Assembly (NCBI GenBank): GCA_024277285.1
Contig: JAJRVM010000307.1
Location: 1 to 6,972 of the forward strand
Origin: Planctomycetota bacterium
GTDB taxonomy: Bacteria > Planctomycetota > Planctomycetia > Pirellulales > Pirellulaceae
Length of the DNA: 6,972 nucleotides
Direction: 5' to 3'
The notes below the pieces were generated by a model. That model was not told the origin of the DNA. It made no database searches and saw only the letters and a program-made list of their open reading frames with translations. The number at the start of each line of letters is the position of its first letter. Positions within the stretch are counted from its first letter, which is position 1. Positions 25 through 6,758 of the stretch are shown here, piece after piece. The position numbers and the translations under genes were made by a program.

Positions 25-77
25 CCGCCTCTCTCCCGCGTCTGCCGCCTCCGGCGGCAGACGCGGGAGAGAGGCGG
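25..77. repeat. Long perfect central hairpin of repeat copy 1
   Basis: A 25-bp perfect inverted repeat (25-49 and 53-77) surrounds a 3-nt TCC loop. The stem is very GC-rich, with GCCGCC/GGCGGC nearest the loop. No T-run follows on either strand, so it is not a canonical Rho-independent terminator. It lies about 174 nt downstream of the stop codon of the minus-strand propeller gene. Its counterpart at 4443-4487 shares the GCCGCC-loop-GGCGGC core but has a different outer stem. Confidence 0.9.
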
Positions 78-118
78 CATTTTCGGCGGTGCCCCGGCTA
101 GCCATGCAAACTGATTCA

Positions 119-139
119 CCAACGGCACAAGCCCGTAGG
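119..139. repeat. ACAAG-loop hairpin of repeat copy 1 (decayed)
   Basis: The arms 119-126 and 132-139 flank an ACAAG loop (127-131). Six of eight positions pair, with mismatches next to the loop (126/132) and at 121/137. Compared with the full copy, the pair 4546/4556 (C-G) has become 124/134 (G-C), a compensating change. The other two changes break pairing, so this copy looks partly decayed. Confidence 0.65.
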
Positions 140-198
140 GGTCCCGGACTTAGGCAAACACTCCTATTGGCTAAACGGTTACGTGGAACGAAACGAAG

Positions 199-250: not shown

Positions 251-2167
251 TCACTCAGCAACCGCGTAGCTGTACAGGTGCGAACCACTGCCGAAGTAAA
301 TCCGTCCATTCAAGAAATCGCCCCCCGGCCCGATCGGGACCGGAGAATTGGCCAGCAACGTCACCTCGAACGTCTGTGGGTCGAGTCGTCCGATGCCTTT
401 CGCAAACAGGATATAAATCGTGCCGCGATCGTCTTTCACAAAGACACGTCGTCCTTGCTGCGAATTGGTCGGACCGAATTTTAGGCTGATCGTTTCCTGA
501 TGCACAATCTTGCGTGTTTCGGGGTCGAATACAAACAGATGCGAGCGGTCGGCAATTCCAATAACCTTGCCCGCTGACCCGAGACACAGGTCGGTGTATT
601 CTTGGGCTCCCGGATGCACGGGTTCGTGCCACTCCATTTTCTTCGTGGCCATGTCCAAAATATAGAGCTCGGCCTGTTCCGCTTTCTTTTCGCCACCGGT
701 GCCCGCAGCCGTCGTGGTGCCACAAAGCAGCTTGCCATTTGAAAGCGGAACGATCGACAACGTCGAGTGCATGGGCAGCAGGTCGGTGTGTTCCAGCAAT
801 ACGCGCTGCTTTGTTTGCCGGTCCCAGAACAGCAGGCCGCCACCGGTATAGCCGTAGCCAGGCGTACCCGCCAAGACCAGTGTCTTGCCGTCGGGGTGAG
901 CCAGCAGTTTATGTGGCCGATTGATGGTGGGTGCCGACTGCGTGAGGAACATCGGATTGCACTGCTTCCCCTTGACTGTCGCTTGCCAGGGTTGAGCAGG
1001 ATCCCAGTCGAGCAGGAAACCGCCGCCATAGCCGCCGGCAAAGAAGTGGTCGCCCTGCCGACCAATTGTATTCCATTGGCCGTAACAAGCTCGATTCACC
1101 CAGCGATCGGCCACCGGATCGTAGCTGAAGAAACGCATGGGAAACGCGGTGCCGCCACAAAGCGTCCCATCAGGCGACGTGGCAACACCCATGATATGCG
1201 CTCCCTCACTGGTATAGTCGAACTTCACCTGCCTGACCTCTTCGGCACCAGCATTCCTAATGGCCATGGCCCGATCAACCAGATCACACGTCACCAACTG
1301 GCTACCATCTGGAAACGCCTGATGAAACAACCCCTGGCTGCTGCTGATCACCGGCTTGATCCGAATCTGATTGTGCTGGCCGATCTTCACGGCAGTGCCC
1401 GCGTGCATTCGGTACCATTTGTCCTTGCCGGGATGGTGCCCGTAGACATTGCCGTCCACATCTCGGTAAACAAAGCCATAGCCCTGTGCGCGCTCGGCAG
1501 CAGGCAACAATTCCTGCACCTTCGCAGTGGTCGGGTCAAACGCCAAGATCTGGCTCATCGTGCTGCCCACCTCGAAGTAGATCCACCCCGAATCGTCCGC
1601 GGCGATGTGACGCGGATACTGGCGCCAATTCTCCTTATTCTGGTAGCCGTAGTCCTTGAACTCGCCCGACTTGGGATCGTACGACACCAATCCACAGTTG
1701 GGATATGTCACTGACCAGATTACACCGCGATCGTCTTCCGTCATACTCATCGCCATCTGCCGCGCGGTCTTGTGGAAGAACGTAAACTTGCGTCGCGCCG
1801 GGTCGAACTCGACAAAGTGGCTGTTGAAATGCGTGTAGTACTTATTTTGACTCGACAGTATCGACGCGTAGGGACCGTCGCCGCCAGGAGGAAATGGCAT
1901 CGGAAACTGGTTCGCCTCGCCTGTGACAGCGTCAATCATCAACAACGCGTACCCACCTCGACAATCGAACAACCAGACCAAAACAACATTACGACCATCA
2001 CCATCGACCGTAGCTACCGTGCCGCGGTGGTTACTCACCGGCGTCGCCACTCCATGGTGCAAAAATCCGTTGCCCAAATCTTCCGTCTCGGCGCGAAGAC
2101 ATGGTGCGAAACAGAATAGAATGCCACACAACAGGAATGCGTGAACGTTGGCGAATCTTGTAGACAT
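251..2167 (-). CDS. Secreted multi-blade beta-propeller protein
   Basis: The 638-residue product starts with a Sec-type signal peptide: a hydrophobic run at residues 10-22, then a likely cleavage after LRA at residue 26. No lipobox is convincing. The mature part is made of repeated beta-propeller-like strands carrying a D-P/T-x-x-x-K/R signature, for example VEFDPARRKF (119-128), VSYDPKSGEF (161-170), LAFDPTTAKV (208-217), FSYDPVADRW (347-356), LFWDRQTKQR (446-455), YILDMATKKM (502-511), FVFDPETRKI (545-554) and GRLDPQTFEV (593-602). About twelve or thirteen such units would suit two tandem six- or seven-bladed propellers. The resemblance is to SMP-30/NHL/Vgb-like propellers in general, and no enzyme family or catalytic set was recognised. 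The start is supported by AAGGAG (2175-2180) 7 nt before ATG. It lies 116 nt downstream of two amidohydrolase genes on the same strand, which suggests a shared transcript and an extracytoplasmic role. The specific function is unknown. Confidence 0.88.
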   Translation of the reverse strand: MSTRFANVHAFLLCGILFCFAPCLRAETEDLGNGFLHHGVATPVSNHRGTVATVDGDGRNVVLVWLFDCRGGYALLMIDAVTGEANQFPMPFPPGGDGPYASILSSQNKYYTHFNSHFVEFDPARRKFTFFHKTARQMAMSMTEDDRGVIWSVTYPNCGLVSYDPKSGEFKDYGYQNKENWRQYPRHIAADDSGWIYFEVGSTMSQILAFDPTTAKVQELLPAAERAQGYGFVYRDVDGNVYGHHPGKDKWYRMHAGTAVKIGQHNQIRIKPVISSSQGLFHQAFPDGSQLVTCDLVDRAMAIRNAGAEEVRQVKFDYTSEGAHIMGVATSPDGTLCGGTAFPMRFFSYDPVADRWVNRACYGQWNTIGRQGDHFFAGGYGGGFLLDWDPAQPWQATVKGKQCNPMFLTQSAPTINRPHKLLAHPDGKTLVLAGTPGYGYTGGGLLFWDRQTKQRVLLEHTDLLPMHSTLSIVPLSNGKLLCGTTTAAGTGGEKKAEQAELYILDMATKKMEWHEPVHPGAQEYTDLCLGSAGKVIGIADRSHLFVFDPETRKIVHQETISLKFGPTNSQQGRRVFVKDDRGTIYILFAKGIGRLDPQTFEVTLLANSPVPIGPGGDFLNGRIYFGSGSHLYSYAVAE

Positions 2168-2283
2168 CTTTCATCTCCTTAATGCGGCGTGTTGCTGGTA
2201 GCTGGCCAGCCATGCCTTCCGCCGGGACGAACCCGACGGTGGGCCGTATTCGATAGCTGGGCCAGCATGTTGTGAGACACAGT
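2168..2283. other. Intergenic spacer with two similar palindromes
   Basis: This 116-nt gap holds TAGCTGGCCAGCCATG (2199-2214) and TAGCTGGGCCAGCATG (2254-2269). They are near-identical, each is centred on a GCTGG/CCAGC palindrome, and they lie 55 bp apart. They could be paired operator half-sites, or alternative RNA stems between the second amidohydrolase gene and the propeller gene. No clear promoter was found, and the Shine-Dalgarno of the propeller gene lies at its left end. Confidence 0.4.
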
Positions 2284-3057
2284 TTAGACCGGTTTACCAA
2301 CACGCTGCGCGTTCTGAAAACAGATCGCCTTCCGCTGCGCGTCGATCAACGACGACTCGCGCAATTTCAGCAATGCCGACTCGATCACGAAAAACGGAAA
2401 ATGCGAACCGAACAACAACCGGTCCAAGGGCATCTGTTGCAACGATCGGGCAATCCCCTCGATTCCTTCAAGCGTCGCGATCTCGAAAAAGACTCGGTCG
2501 GTCGCGACGAGTTTCTTGAGCGCGTCGCCGCGTACCGACTGCATCGCATTAAGCAATACCAGCTTCAAACGCGGACAGGCCGCAACCAGATCGGCCAACG
2601 GCGCCGTGTCGACATCCTTGACGCGTGCCAACGGATGTTGCATTCGCGGATCTTCCATGCGCACGGCCAACTGCACTAACAAACCACGCGCCGCCGCCAA
2701 CCTCAGCAGTTCGGCGAACCGTGGATCGTCGAGCTGATAGCCATGATAGTTGGGATGTAATCGGATCCCAGGCATGCGGTACACTTCGTGGCAACGTCGC
2801 AAGTCTTCACGCCAGTCAGGCAACATCGGGTTGACCGTTCCCAGCGGACGCAACATCCCCTGCGGTGCGTTTCCACAATCTGTTGTCAGCCGAGCATTTA
2901 CACCATCAACATCTTTGTGAAACAGGCCATCGAAACTGCCAACCCACGCTTGTGTGACGCCAACGGCGCGCAGTTTCTTGACCAGCTGTCCCGTTTCGTC
3001 ATGCGGTAACCGGCGAAACGGCCATCGCGACAGATTGACATTGACGTCAATGATCAT
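2284..3057 (-). CDS. Amidohydrolase-2 family protein with degenerate metal site
   Basis: The 257-residue protein has the overall layout of Amidohydro_2 (PF04909) TIM-barrel enzymes but lacks the usual metal ligands. The N-terminal HxH position reads DVNVN (N6, N8). The strand that normally ends in His reads LLVQLA (Q129). The usual AHxG strand reads LKLVLLNAMQ (N170). The C-terminal GSD motif reads FGSHFPF (H219 in place of Asp). The RLHP segment (H101) is kept. By family knowledge this predicts a metal-free pseudoenzyme or one with a rebuilt site. The barrel ends with the usual helix near FQNAQRV. No signal peptide is visible. ATG overlaps the stop of the upstream amidohydrolase gene (ATGA, 3054-3057), with AAGGAG (3066-3071) 8 nt before it, so the two are translationally coupled and probably made in similar amounts. 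The likely role is a structural or regulatory partner of that enzyme; the substrate is unknown. Confidence 0.85.
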   Translation of the reverse strand: MIIDVNVNLSRWPFRRLPHDETGQLVKKLRAVGVTQAWVGSFDGLFHKDVDGVNARLTTDCGNAPQGMLRPLGTVNPMLPDWREDLRRCHEVYRMPGIRLHPNYHGYQLDDPRFAELLRLAAARGLLVQLAVRMEDPRMQHPLARVKDVDTAPLADLVAACPRLKLVLLNAMQSVRGDALKKLVATDRVFFEIATLEGIEGIARSLQQMPLDRLLFGSHFPFFVIESALLKLRESSLIDAQRKAICFQNAQRVGKPV

Positions 3058-3983
3058 AGCGCGATCTCCTTGGCCGCACAGATGGGTGCCAACAGCCGTC
3101 TAATATTACCAGCCAAGATCAACCGTTTCGACGACTCGGGAATCTCGGCACCCAACACTTTGGCCAACTGCGAAGAAAAACTGCGTCCGGCAAAGTCGCT
3201 GCCATAGATCACGCGCCGATCCCCCAGTTCCCGGACCGCCATTTCAACAAAACCGGCCGTCGGATCGCCACCACATACTTCGGCGACCACATTCGTGGTC
3301 TTACGTATGGCGCGAATCCCGATTTCCCAATCGCCGCCCGTATGCGCTGCGATGAACGACGCATCCGGATGACGCGTGGCCAGTTCGGCCAGCTCCTCGG
3401 CCGTCGACTCGCCCGGCAAATTCCCCGTGATCTTGTACCACGTATGCTGAAGGACGGGCGCTTTCAGCTCCGTGGCGCGTGTGACAATCGGATCGAGCCG
3501 CTTGTCATTACAGTGTAATGCGACCCACAACTTGACCCCCACCATCGGCCCGTCACGGACACAGCGATCCAACTCGTCAAGGCTCGCTTGCGTGTGCTTG
3601 GGATTCACATAGACGAAACCCAGCGCGCGTCCATCCGCATGCTCGATCGCTTCCAACACCTGATCGTTCTGCCGGCGCAGGGCATCCGGAGTGGGATCGT
3701 GAGACCAGGGATAGCCCATGAATACGATCACTCGCTCGATATGCATCGCATCGGCAACTTTCAGCAAGCTGGTCATGCGCTGCGACGGCGTCTCGCCCGG
3801 CGAGCTGAGGTGACCGTGCGCGTCCCAGATCACATAGTCGCTTGGGTCGCACGCGCTCGAGCAGGAGGCCGGCTGAGCCGCTGCCACATTCGACGGACCG
3901 CTCAATACAGATCCTGCAACGGCAATTTGCGCACTGCTGATCAGCATGTCGCGTCGCGATACCTTGCGGTCGGAAACATCCAT
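3054..3983 (-). CDS. Tat-exported amidohydrolase (metal-dependent hydrolase)
   Basis: The 309-residue product has a twin-arginine signal, SRRDML (residues 9-14), followed by a hydrophobic stretch to about 28 and a probable cleavage near VAAA (33-36). The mature domain fits Amidohydro_2 (PF04909) and keeps the full metal-binding set: DAHGH with H56 and H58, VLQH with H180, FIAAHTGG with H214, and IYGSD with D263. K151 in VGVKLW is another candidate active-site residue. Family members hydrolyse lactones or decarboxylate aromatic acids; the substrate here cannot be assigned. Export is predicted to be in a folded, metal-loaded state. ATG at 3983 has GGAG (3992-3995) 8 nt upstream. It is the first gene of a minus-strand unit and overlaps the next amidohydrolase gene by 4 nt. 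Lactonase-like and decarboxylase-like roles are both possible. Confidence 0.88.
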   Translation of the reverse strand: MDVSDRKVSRRDMLISSAQIAVAGSVLSGPSNVAAAQPASCSSACDPSDYVIWDAHGHLSSPGETPSQRMTSLLKVADAMHIERVIVFMGYPWSHDPTPDALRRQNDQVLEAIEHADGRALGFVYVNPKHTQASLDELDRCVRDGPMVGVKLWVALHCNDKRLDPIVTRATELKAPVLQHTWYKITGNLPGESTAEELAELATRHPDASFIAAHTGGDWEIGIRAIRKTTNVVAEVCGGDPTAGFVEMAVRELGDRRVIYGSDFAGRSFSSQLAKVLGAEIPESSKRLILAGNIRRLLAPICAAKEIAL

Positions 3984-4028
3984 CCGGAAGACTCCGTGAA
4001 TTTTATTGGCCCTGTCACAAACGGCCGG

Positions 4029-4059
4029 ACGCGTTGCCCAATAACGCGTTGGCCCAATA
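4029..4059. promoter_or_regulatory. Tandem 15/16-bp repeat, candidate activator or operator site
   Basis: ACGCGTTGCCCAATA (4029-4043) is followed directly by ACGCGTTGGCCCAATA (4044-4059), identical except for one extra G. The junction also forms a dyad, CGCGTT (4030-4035) and AACGCG (4043-4048). Its centre is about 104 bp before the start expected for the sigma-54 promoter at 4121, a usual distance for enhancer-binding-protein sites. It also lies 46-76 bp upstream of the divergent amidohydrolase start codon, so it could serve either gene or both. Confidence 0.5.
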
Positions 4060-4120
4060 CCGCCCCCAGCTGCACGTTAAGCGGGTTATGTGACAGGTTC
4101 TTAGTGTGATTATCACCACA

Positions 4121-4138
4121 TTGGCACGACGATTGCAA
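4121..4138 (+). promoter_or_regulatory. Sigma-54 (RpoN) promoter, rightward
   Basis: TTGGCACGACGATTGCAA fits the -24/-12 consensus TTGGCACG-N4-TTGCW at every conserved position: the GG is at 4123-4124 and the GC at 4135-4136. Transcription should start near 4147-4148 and run right toward the glycosyltransferase, giving a leader of about 500 nt that includes the whole repeat at 4332-4628. Sigma-54 promoters need an ATP-driven activator bound upstream; the tandem repeat at 4029-4059 is the best candidate site. Confidence 0.75.
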
Positions 4139-4148
4139 GTCGCGTCCT

Positions 4149-4331
4149 CGTCCAAGAAAAGACATAGCAGCCGTTCACGCAATTCGAGCGAGCGGAATGT
4201 CCTCCGATTTGAGATGCTCACCTTGTCTTCCGCTGGCCTCGCACTACAACTTGGGTAACACGACAACTTGCATAGCTGGTTTCAACACGATTCGTTGGTA
4301 CGATTTGGGTTGATGTGAGTTGAGCTAACTT
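4149..4331. other. Leader region without a recognised gene
   Basis: This stretch between the sigma-54 promoter and the hairpin repeat shows no convincing gene. A 38-codon ORF (4197-4313) lacks a good ribosome binding site. AACTTG recurs near 4249, 4266 and 4327, with no clear structure. Confidence 0.4.
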
Positions 4332-4382
4332 GAATTCGAGTAACAGTTTAGCCGAATGAAGTAATGTCGCTTTCAAGTGACT

Positions 4383-4403
4383 CCCATGGGCTTGTCCCAT
4401 GGG
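4383..4403. repeat. Left CTTGT-loop hairpin of repeat copy 2
   Basis: CCCATGGG arms (4383-4390 and 4396-4403) pair perfectly around a CTTGT loop (4391-4395). Compared with the complement of the right hairpin (4541-4561), stem positions 5, 6 and 8 differ, and each difference is matched by its pairing base, so all eight pairs are kept. Confidence 0.8.
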
Positions 4404-4442
4404 TGAATACGGCTGGTGAGCTACCGCGATGCCAGCTACTCC

Positions 4443-4487
4443 CCCCCTTCCCTCGCCGCCGCCTTCGGCGGCGGCGAGGGAAGGGGG
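4443..4487. repeat. Central 21-bp GC hairpin of repeat copy 2
   Basis: The arms 4443-4463 and 4467-4487 are perfectly complementary around a TTC loop. The inner stem is GCCGCC/GGCGGC, as in the hairpin at 25-77, while the outer stem differs in sequence but is also perfectly paired. No T-run follows. In the expected leader of the glycosyltransferase message it would be an extremely stable stem. Confidence 0.9.
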
Positions 4488-4540
4488 CCGTGAATGTGGG
4501 GGGGAATGGGAAGTCACGGGTAGCCTACCAATCCTCTTCA

Positions 4541-4561
4541 CCCACCGCACAAGGCGGTGGG
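4541..4561. repeat. Right ACAAG-loop hairpin of repeat copy 2
   Basis: CCCACCGC (4541-4548) pairs with GCGGTGGG (4554-4561) around an ACAAG loop (4549-4553). It is the inverted counterpart of 4383-4403 and is preceded by TTCA and followed by GGGTC, both also present at the hairpin at 119-139. Confidence 0.8.
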
Positions 4562-4645
4562 GGTCGACCGATGGAAAATGAACTCGAGTGCACGCCTCAC
4601 TTCAGATGGCTAAACAGTTACGAATTCGATAACACGGGAATGCAC

Positions 4646-5959
4646 ATGAATGTACTAGCACGACCTGGCGTCAAACGCGTGGGGTTCGTCTCGACCCGGA
4701 TCAGCGGGACCGATGGCGTTTCGCTTGAGATTGCCAAGTGGGCCGACGTGATTGAGAGGATGGGACTCGAGTGTTATTACATTGCGGGCGAATCGGACCG
4801 CGCGGACAACCGTACTTACCTGATCGAAGAGGCCCACTTCAATCACCCCGACGTCTTGGATATCTCGCGGCGAGCTTTCGAGGGGGAGCTTCGCACACCG
4901 GAGTTGACGAACGACATTGTGAACCTCAACCTGGTGATTCGTGAAAAGCTGCGCCGCGCCGTGGAAGCACTGGAAGTGGACGCGTTGATCGTGGAGAACG
5001 CTCTGACGATCCCCATGAATCTGTCGTTGGGGATGGCGCTGGTTGCCGAGATTCAGGAGCAAGGCATCCCCTGCGTGGCGCATCACCACGACTTCTATTG
5101 GGAACGTGATCGGTTCCTGGTTAACGCGGTGGACGATATCATCCGCTACGCCTTTCCACCCGCGTTGCCGCAGATTCAACACGTCGTGATCAACAGCCTG
5201 GCGGGCGAAGAGTTTAGCCGCCGTACGGGTCTGTCGTGTCGAATCATTCCCAACGTAATGGACTTTGCGAATCCGCCTGAACCGCCAGATGAATACTCGG
5301 CTCAGTTTCGCGCCGAAATCGGCCTCGACGACGACGATCTACTGATTCTCCAACCGACGCGAGTCGTTGCGCGCAAGGGCATTGAGTTGGCGATTGAATT
5401 GACCCGACGTCTGGCTCCCGATCGAGCCAAGCTGGTGATCACACACGCCTCGGGGGACGAGGGGGATGCCTACTCGAAACGAATCCGCGAATTTGCCGAG
5501 CTTATGGACGTGGACGTGATCTTCGCCGACAAGTGGATCTCGGACCAGCGCGGGACAGCACCGGACGGACGCAAGCTGTTTACGATCCACGACACTTATC
5601 CACAGGCAGACTTGATTGCGTATCCTTCCACCTATGAAGGGTTTGGCAACGCGTTCCTTGAAGCCGTCTATCATAAGTGCCCGATCGTTTGCAATCGATA
5701 CGCAGTCTACCGTACTGACATCGAACCGGTGGGCATGAAACCGATCCTGTTTGACGGGTTCCCCACCGACGACACCATCGACGAAATTCGCCACGTGTTG
5801 AGCGACGCGACCTATCGCAAGGAGATGGTAGATCACAACTACGCCGTCGCCAACCAATTCTTCAGCTACGAAGTGCTGGAAGAAGAACTGCGGCTCATGA
5901 TCCAACGGCCACACAATATCTACCGGTCGCTCGGACGACGCAAACCAATGGGCGACTGA
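4646..5959 (+). CDS. GT4-family glycosyltransferase, possibly MggA-like
   Basis: The 437-residue protein is a GT-B retaining glycosyltransferase of family GT4. The N-terminal acceptor domain starts VGFVSTRISGTDGVSLE (12-28), with the glycine-rich loop, and contains HHHDFYWERD (146-155). The C-terminal nucleotide-sugar domain has PTRVVARKG (237-245), whose R239 and K244 suit the phosphate contacts, and the EX7E motif EGFGNAFLE (E331, E339). No membrane segment or signal peptide is visible, so it should be cytosolic. The N-terminal pattern recalls mannosylglucosyl-3-phosphoglycerate synthases, which make the compatible solute mannosylglucosylglycerate; this is from memory and uncertain. ATG 4646 is chosen because the fold begins there and GGGA (4636-4639) lies 6 nt upstream. 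ATG 4640 is an alternative. The frame stays open back to 4364, but that part translates hairpin repeat DNA and is low-complexity. A sigma-54 promoter lies upstream. Confidence 0.88.
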   Translation: MNVLARPGVKRVGFVSTRISGTDGVSLEIAKWADVIERMGLECYYIAGESDRADNRTYLIEEAHFNHPDVLDISRRAFEGELRTPELTNDIVNLNLVIREKLRRAVEALEVDALIVENALTIPMNLSLGMALVAEIQEQGIPCVAHHHDFYWERDRFLVNAVDDIIRYAFPPALPQIQHVVINSLAGEEFSRRTGLSCRIIPNVMDFANPPEPPDEYSAQFRAEIGLDDDDLLILQPTRVVARKGIELAIELTRRLAPDRAKLVITHASGDEGDAYSKRIREFAELMDVDVIFADKWISDQRGTAPDGRKLFTIHDTYPQADLIAYPSTYEGFGNAFLEAVYHKCPIVCNRYAVYRTDIEPVGMKPILFDGFPTDDTIDEIRHVLSDATYRKEMVDHNYAVANQFFSYEVLEEELRLMIQRPHNIYRSLGRRKPMGD

Positions 5960-6018: not shown

Positions 6019-6462
6019 CTACCGTGAAGCGGTTTCCAGCGGGAATCGGCACTGCAGCCCCGGGAACCTCGTGAAGTCCCGGCCCGCAGTATGGACGGTG
6101 CCTCGGTAGGCGATTGCCAGTGAGGCGATCTGAGCATCCGTGACAAGGTTCCCTCCTGCGGAACCGGCTTCGCTAAGCAGGTCGAGAACCTTCCGAACAT
6201 GCCCCGCATCTGGTTGCAAGAAACGCGTTACCTGGCGGTCGAGCCACGACGCGACGTGAGCGGAGGCATCCGCCAAACTCATCGGCCGAATGTAAGCCCG
6301 CGTGCTGGTCGCAATGCGCACAAACGCAAAGAGGACCGGGTTGGACAACCCAACCGGCTCGCTACCCGAGAGGCAATCGCTCCACCATGTCCGTGCCACA
6401 TCATGAAATGGCGATGTATCATCATATGCGTACAACAGCAGATTCGCATCGGGGACGATCAT
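6019..6462 (-). CDS. vapC: VapC-type PIN-domain toxin (RNase)
   Basis: The 147-residue protein opens with MIVPDANLLLYAYD, the standard first strand of a PIN domain with catalytic D5. Further acidic residues are D109 in LVTDAQIA and D129 in the terminal GRDFTRFPGL motif. The second-helix position that carries Glu in many VapC proteins reads NPVLFAFVRI (41-50), with no acidic residue, as in some PIN subfamilies with an xFxRI motif. PIN toxins are Mg-dependent endonucleases that cut tRNA or rRNA and are held inactive by VapB. ATG 6462 is chosen because it overlaps the vapB stop as ATGA (6459-6462) and begins at the fold. An in-frame ATG at 6507 would add 15 residues and deepen the overlap. No good ribosome binding site is seen, which fits translational coupling. 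Target unknown. Confidence 0.88.
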   Translation of the reverse strand: MIVPDANLLLYAYDDTSPFHDVARTWWSDCLSGSEPVGLSNPVLFAFVRIATSTRAYIRPMSLADASAHVASWLDRQVTRFLQPDAGHVRKVLDLLSEAGSAGGNLVTDAQIASLAIAYRGTVHTAGRDFTRFPGLQCRFPLETASR

Positions 6463-6758
6463 CGCATGCGTCCGTTCGCGCAATCGAATTTCTGGTTTAG
6501 CCGACACGTGAGATTGAGAAATGCATCGACTTCCAATTCATCTCCCAACTGCTGAAGCTCCACCGGATCAATCCCGGTGCGCAACCCCATCGACTGAGGC
6601 GACACCACGAATGGCTCTTCAGGTACCGCCAAAGTTATTCCGGCCAAGCCCTTTCGGATGGCCTCATTGAGCGTCGTCTTGAAGCTCTGCCCCGTCTGCT
6701 GCATGGCCTGCCGCAGCAGTTGCTCTACATCCGGTTCGACAGTTACGGTGGTCCTCAT
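6459..6758 (-). CDS. vapB: VapB-type ribbon-helix-helix antitoxin
   Basis: The 99-residue protein has an N-terminal ribbon-helix-helix DNA-binding part: strand MRTTVTVEPDVEQLLRQAMQ (1-20), then helices through TTLNEAIRKGL (28-38). A linker follows with FVVSPQSMGLRTG, a segment common in PIN-partner antitoxins, and DELEVDAFL near residues 73-81. The last 18 or so residues, rich in basic and polar residues, go beyond where such antitoxins often end and run into the ATGA overlap with vapC. The N-terminal part should repress the operon and the C-terminal part should wrap and block the toxin. No Shine-Dalgarno precedes ATG 6758; the promoter position suggests a leaderless message. Confidence 0.85.
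   Translation of the reverse strand: MRTTVTVEPDVEQLLRQAMQQTGQSFKTTLNEAIRKGLAGITLAVPEEPFVVSPQSMGLRTGIDPVELQQLGDELEVDAFLNLTCRLNQKFDCANGRMR

Follow-up and report, generated by a model that had tools for sequence, protein, structure and literature searches.

Organisation of the locus

The window, by which we mean the whole 6,972 nt stretch of planctomycete DNA analysed here, contains a 282 bp element (4340-4621) flanked by an amidohydrolase-type gene (3054-3983, minus strand; PF04909) and, in divergent orientation to it, a glycosyltransferase gene (PF00534) whose ORF is listed from 4364 and whose probable ATG lies at 4640. The element itself lacks a transposase gene, the long ORF that crosses it being the glycosyltransferase frame. 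Elsewhere in the window two Amidohydro_2 (PF04909) genes lie side by side (2284-3983, minus strand), and at 6019-6758 (minus strand) a gene for a PIN-domain protein (PF01850) is overlapped upstream by a 99 aa ORF without a Pfam match, a pair that looks like a VapBC-type toxin-antitoxin system. No match in the window reached the Rfam gathering score, and three sub-threshold microRNA matches at 21-80 were put down to chance on a GC-rich hairpin.

An exact 8 bp direct repeat, GAATTCGA, stands outside both ends of the element, which begins at either tip with a 14 bp terminal inverted repeat, GTAACNGTTTAGCC, starting GTAAC. The original prediction had set the extent at 4332-4628; the element does lie inside this range, which additionally takes in nearly all of both duplications as these occupy 4332-4339 and 4622-4629. 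The mirrored architecture that it described, with a terminal motif, CTTGT-loop hairpins and a central 21 bp hairpin, was confirmed by the coordinates. The terminal motif GGCTAAACAGTTAC is found at 4608-4621 on the plus strand and as its reverse complement at 4340-4353, with a third occurrence at 169-182, while the subterminal hairpins have their loops at 4391-4395 and 4549-4553 and 8 bp arms at 4383-4390/4396-4403 and 4541-4548/4554-4561. The arms of the element are unequal, with loop-to-tip distances of 51 nt on one side and 68 nt on the other. The DNA folding energy of -83 kcal/mol compares with -47.6 (sd 4.1) for 200 dinucleotide shuffles, none of which folded as low (z = -8.6). The third terminal motif belongs to a second, right-half copy (about 25-182), in which the REP hairpin has 2 of 8 pairs broken and scores 41.7 bits with our module model R1, and any left half of which lies beyond the window.

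Table 1. Coordinates of the mobile element, its parts and the partial second copy in the window
Feature	Position	Strand	Evidence or remark
Left target-site duplication, GAATTCGA	4332..4339	.	8/8 identical to right flank
Whole MITE, 282 bp	4340..4621	+	End 18 nt upstream of probable ATG (4640) of glycosyltransferase gene; start codon read from sequence
Left terminal inverted repeat, GTAACAGTTTAGCC, IS66-type tip	4340..4353	+	Tip common to complete IS66 element L166
Left REP module: 8 bp stem, CTTGT loop 4391-4395, GGTGAA tail	4379..4428	+	Model R1, 56.2 bits (sequence in R1 training set)
Central 21 bp hairpin, TTC loop	4443..4487	.	Arms 4443-4463/4467-4487, 100% complementary
Right REP module in inverted orientation, differing from left at three compensated pairs	4516..4565	-	Model R1, 54.8 bits (in training set)
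Right terminal inverted repeat, GTAACTGTTTAGCC	4608..4621	-	Motif search and border analysis
Right target-site duplication, GAATTCGA	4622..4629	.	8/8 against left flank
Second copy, right half only: central hairpin 25-77 (by inspection), degenerate REP 94-143, terminal repeat 169-182	25..182	-	

Copies in one genome and IS66-type ends

The search for further copies that the original prediction proposed was productive: a contig database scan with the terminal repeat and hairpin loop pattern returned 51 stretches, all from a single MAG, Planctomycetota bacterium Dive96_bin4.48 (G001), a restriction that is no proof of absence elsewhere as the scan pattern was strict. Over the BLAST-aligned parts the window is 67-79% identical to the G001 sequences. 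By requiring both ends to fit a degenerate end pattern (at most one mismatch) at 180-420 bp from each other, which leaves out copies with worse ends (for example in L004 and L042), we delimited 33 copies in G001 with lengths of 219-411 bp, 28 of them within 277-285 bp. The target duplications of these copies agree at 8/8 positions in 18 cases, 7/8 in 8, 6/8 in 6 and 5/8 in 1, so that 32/33 match at 6 or more positions; for left and right flanks taken from different copies this is the case in about 2%.

Inverted repeats starting GTAAGCG and 8 bp direct repeats are given for IS66 in the accessible part of PMC11946415, and the accessible part of PMC12888890 places GTAACCGTCCGGGCA at the ends of ISPsy43 and other IS66 elements. 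A relative of G001 harbours a complete IS66 element (L166) of 1510 bp with a 487 aa transposase; its ends are GTAACCGTTCACAC, it ends in GTAACCGTTCAC, and the 8 bp duplication CGCCGGCG is present on both sides. Common to this element and the MITE are GTAACNGTT and an 8 bp duplication. Judged by its sequence, with GTAA ends and 8 bp duplications as in L166, the shell of the window element is an IS66-type MITE. Among the 31 IS66 loci scanned none has the full 14 bp GTAACNGTTTAGCC end, and the tip GTAAC-N-GTT was seen only in L166 and L053. Only two IS66 transposase fragments were seen in G001, and these were rejected as the autonomous partner as they lack a full end (beside one of them, L053, lies a GTAACCGTTCACG end). 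Also in G001 (L053, 67-137), a short palindrome that carries GTAACCGTTCACG at either end adjoins an IS66 transposase fragment.

The hairpin module beyond the element

An alignment of 39 rows defines a module of about 50 nt consisting of GACCCC, a 6 bp variable stem, a CTYGY-type loop, the returning stem and GGTGARnnAG. The conserved flanks are GACCCC and GGTGA, and an unpaired GTAG or CGTC foot was not found in it. R1 matches numbered 126 across 52 sources, 51 of which had been picked with a search pattern containing the hairpin. Searched by model, 6 of 294 genomes drawn across the phylum and 27 of 196 relatives of G001 carry the module; in these whole-genome searches only the best candidates per genome were scored and misses are possible.

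Modules also occur in tandem in G001 at 68 bp steps (L001 at 5391, 5459 and 5527; L048 at 2979 and 3047). Elements of G004 (L055-L072, L171, L197) contain several modules each and have different terminal repeats (GGGGCG...). Palindromes of about 225 bp with four copies in the order + + - - are present in G059 and G041 (L229-L239), where in 8 of 11 stretches each of the four copies passes a 6 bp stem filter. In G397 (L240) a REP pair surrounds a perfect 22 bp hairpin without IS66-type ends, a form that resembles the interior of the window element minus those ends. No IS66-type end, with two mismatches allowed, was found in 13 stretches from G059, G041, G397 and G414. The CTTGT hairpins form a module in their own right, which occurs alone, in tandem and in four-copy palindromes. 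We interpret it as a REP, and the window element as an IS66-type MITE that encloses a REPIN-like pair.

These occurrences bear on whether the hairpins are REPs at all or belong to the transposon ends, where the IS66-type transposase would use them for binding or regulation. Their mirroring along with the terminal repeats is what the latter would give, as is their spacing, the loops starting 51-52 nt from one tip and 70-72 nt from the other in the 27 of 33 G001 copies with both loops found. Against it, the module stands apart from such ends in G001, G004, G041, G059 and G397 and at RAYT genes, and R1 had no match at E 0.05 over the 99 kb that surround 29 IS66 loci; we hold an origin as transposon-end structures to be very improbable.

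Association with a RAYT subfamily

In G121 (L108) a Y1 transposase gene encoding 289 aa (1653-2522, minus strand), with a PF01797 match at 2.5e-13, is bracketed by five modules, of which one flank has two and the other flank three in inverted orientation. The subfamily of RAYT (REP-associated HUH transposase) to which it belongs was found in 3 of the 294 genomes of the phylum draw, all three of them among the 6 genomes with the module (the module and RAYT counts apparently derive from one draw, as the listed handles agree). Within the 196 relatives of G001 the module is present in 27 and the RAYT, with a cut of E 1e-10, in 24, while 18 have both, such that the module occurs in 18/24 RAYT genomes against 9/172 others (Fisher p 3.7e-14); at a RAYT cut of E 1e-3 the figures are 19/37 against 8/159 (p 1.4e-10), and both tests overstate the association as related genomes are not independent. 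The module is without the RAYT in 9 genomes and the RAYT without the module in 6 of 24. The original prediction had suggested looking for a nearby transposase or RAYT gene, and RAYT genes do lie beside modules in relatives; a RAYT of the L108 subfamily was not found in G001 or G004, which are both module-rich and both draft assemblies of many contigs. Four RAYT-like PF01797 genes of G001 (L074-L077) were rejected, having no R1 match alongside and no match to the L108 protein.

With R1, modules were found alongside 9 of 24 further RAYT loci (L199-L222). A model-free count was also made of hairpins with perfect 7 bp stems and 5 nt loops within 700 bp of the gene, using 27 RAYT loci, namely these 24 and those of G121, G174 and G189. 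The loop is CTYGY in 77 of 110 hairpins beside the RAYT genes, the positives falling in 15 loci, compared with 0 of 13 hairpins at 22 other Y1 loci and 0 of 7 at 29 IS66 loci. The other Y1 loci comprise 16 of the 21 from G121, G174 and G189 together with L223-L228, with L118, L119, L120, L130, L133 and the four of G001 excluded; R1 at E 0.1 or better had no match in the 21 loci of G121, G174 and G189. The G121 locus falls outside the 15, its loops being of other length or sequence by inspection, and is positive via the model only. By R1 or a CTYGY hairpin 16/27 RAYT loci are positive and 11/27 have neither. Orientation is inward for 53 of the 77 CTYGY hairpins (31 plus-strand on the left, 22 minus-strand on the right) and outward for 24, tandem copies among them not being independent. 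Hairpin tails at the G174 and G189 RAYTs differ from GGTGAA. Tandem REP arrays with a period near 70 bp adjoin the RAYT in L202 (604-1499, about 13 hairpins) and L213 (985-1451, about 7).

The L108 RAYT has two Y1-like halves, with a Tyr/Gln motif in the first and HUH in the second. H231, H233, Y140 and Q144 are invariant in 34 aligned sequences, and we infer that Y140 is the catalytic Tyr. In the structure comparison a high-Z alignment to transposases was obtained for the second half only; the assignment of the first half comes from its sequence profile and predicted secondary structure.

Covariation and its causes

The three stem differences between the two subterminal hairpins were as originally described: running from the outside inwards, the 5' arms have the sequences CCCATGGG and CCCACCGC, all three differing pairs are compensated, and the CTTGT loop and GGGTGAA flank are the same in both. 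In the larger alignment of 39 modules covariation extends between arms and genomes, with two-sided changes at 6 of 8 pairs and 99.4% of cells paired, a proportion that is inflated by the choice of rows with at least 5 paired stem bases. Aligned regardless of pairing, the REP stems of 34 MITE copies contain 521 Watson-Crick pairs, 2 wobbles, 6 mismatches and 15 gapped cells. Only two pair columns there are compensated, and each owes this to a single row, by inspection that of the window copy. The proposal that this pattern points to selection on folded RNA or single-stranded DNA is partly supported: the stems covary, but compensation by itself does not prove selection on the fold. That the hairpin matters is better argued from its CTYGY loop and from its inverted placement at RAYT genes.

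Compensated differences could also arise by mutation, through template switching in which one arm of a near-palindrome serves as template for the other, and we regard this as a serious possibility, if somewhat short of an even one. The central hairpin, an equivalent of which is present in 32 of 34 MITE copies, calls for caution here. Within one genome it shows compensated swaps (G-C/C-G and C-G/T-A), a loop reading TTT in 21 and AAA in 8 of the 32 copies with the hairpin, and a perfect 26 bp stem in one copy (L039, 7648-7926), a combination that fits arm copying and inversion and suggests a mutational process, which may act on the REP stems too. The REP stems inside G001 change by single uncompensated hits, which again speaks for mutation. 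Template switching leaves unexplained the recurrent CTYGY loop and the RAYT-adjacent placement, and the two causes are compatible, in that changes might be supplied by mutation and tolerated under selection on the hairpin.

With its end so close to the probable start codon (Table 1), the element might instead act as a folded RNA in front of the glycosyltransferase gene, for instance as an attenuator or to stabilise the mRNA, and REPs and MITEs can serve as RNA elements according to the accessible text of PMC3733652. A simple scan of 3900-4800 found no terminator-like site (intrinsic terminator), Rfam gave no match at gathering score, and the hairpin class tracks a DNA transposase. We consider this explanation unlikely, though the element may still have some RNA effect.

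Discussion

In our view the element is probably an IS66-type MITE, non-autonomous, that carries as its payload a REPIN-like unit of two inverted REP hairpins around a GC-rich hairpin, a confidence that is slightly lowered by the inward orientation of 53 of 77 hairpins rather than nearly all. The original prediction saw a resemblance to a MITE or a REP/BIME-type element and named no family; it is seemingly both at once, and families can now be named, by the IS66-type ends and 8 bp duplications on the one hand and the REP-like modules of a specific RAYT subfamily on the other. Two mobile-DNA systems, one double-strand and one single-strand, thus appear to be nested in 282 bases. In an ancestor, a RAYT-mobilised REP pair would have been caught between two IS66-type ends, and the composite would then have been multiplied in trans by an IS66-type transposase, producing the 8 bp duplications. 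The CTTGT-loop hairpins may have been kept as hairpins through putative recognition as single-stranded DNA by the RAYT. We put forward only tentatively, and as rather doubtful, a fuller two-engine scheme in which an IS66-type DDE transposase would mobilise the 282 bp in double-stranded form and a RAYT the inner REP pair in single-stranded form. This RAYT would be a pseudo-dimer within a single chain and have one composite active site, to which the N-terminal half would contribute the Tyr/Gln helix without HUH and the C-terminal half HUH without the Tyr helix.

In common with IS66-family MITEs the window element has the GTAA tip, 8 bp target duplications, small size and lack of a transposase gene; it differs from them in its interior, where two inverted REPs lie around a central hairpin, and in that no autonomous partner with the full 14 bp end was found in the IS66 loci scanned. 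The REPs and REPINs with RAYT/TnpA_REP of the GTAG and CGTC superfamilies, as far as the accessible parts of PMC3733652 and PMC8266576 describe them, are likewise short high-copy hairpins in inverted pairs or clusters with an adjacent Y1 HUH transposase gene, whereas the modules here have a CTYGY loop and GACCCC and GGTGA flanks in place of a GTAG/CGTC foot, form four-copy palindromes in G041 and G059 and, in the window, sit inside an IS66-type MITE. TnpA_Y1 class 3 (accessible text of PMC6006769) is also found in Planctomycetes, with flanking atypical hairpins that are sometimes high-copy and REPtron-like. As described, its profile of 178 residues with NHVH differs from the RAYT here, of about 270 residues with two apparent Y1 halves and PDHLH. 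In Pseudomonas, degenerate GTAG units of RAYT genes fused to unrelated hairpins (accessible text of PMC3733652) provide a parallel for a REP joined to foreign repeats in many copies; there the composite flanks the RAYT gene, whereas the composite here has IS66-type ends and target duplications. Our literature search, which covered titles, abstract openings and open-access texts, in part, found no description of a REP-carrying planctomycete IS66 MITE or a two-half RAYT, which is weak evidence of novelty. What is new lies in the combination, the REP class and the RAYT type, every single part being of a known kind.

If this reading is true, a single-strand (HUH/REP) system is nested in a double-strand (DDE/MITE) system and REPs would gain a second route of spread, one that is testable via target duplications. 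It also points to a class of REPs that is marked by the CTYGY loop and not by a GTAG foot, and that is tied to a RAYT subfamily with a seemingly shared active site. Should the two RAYT halves indeed share one active site, the protein would be a minimal single-site HUH transposase open to direct dissection.
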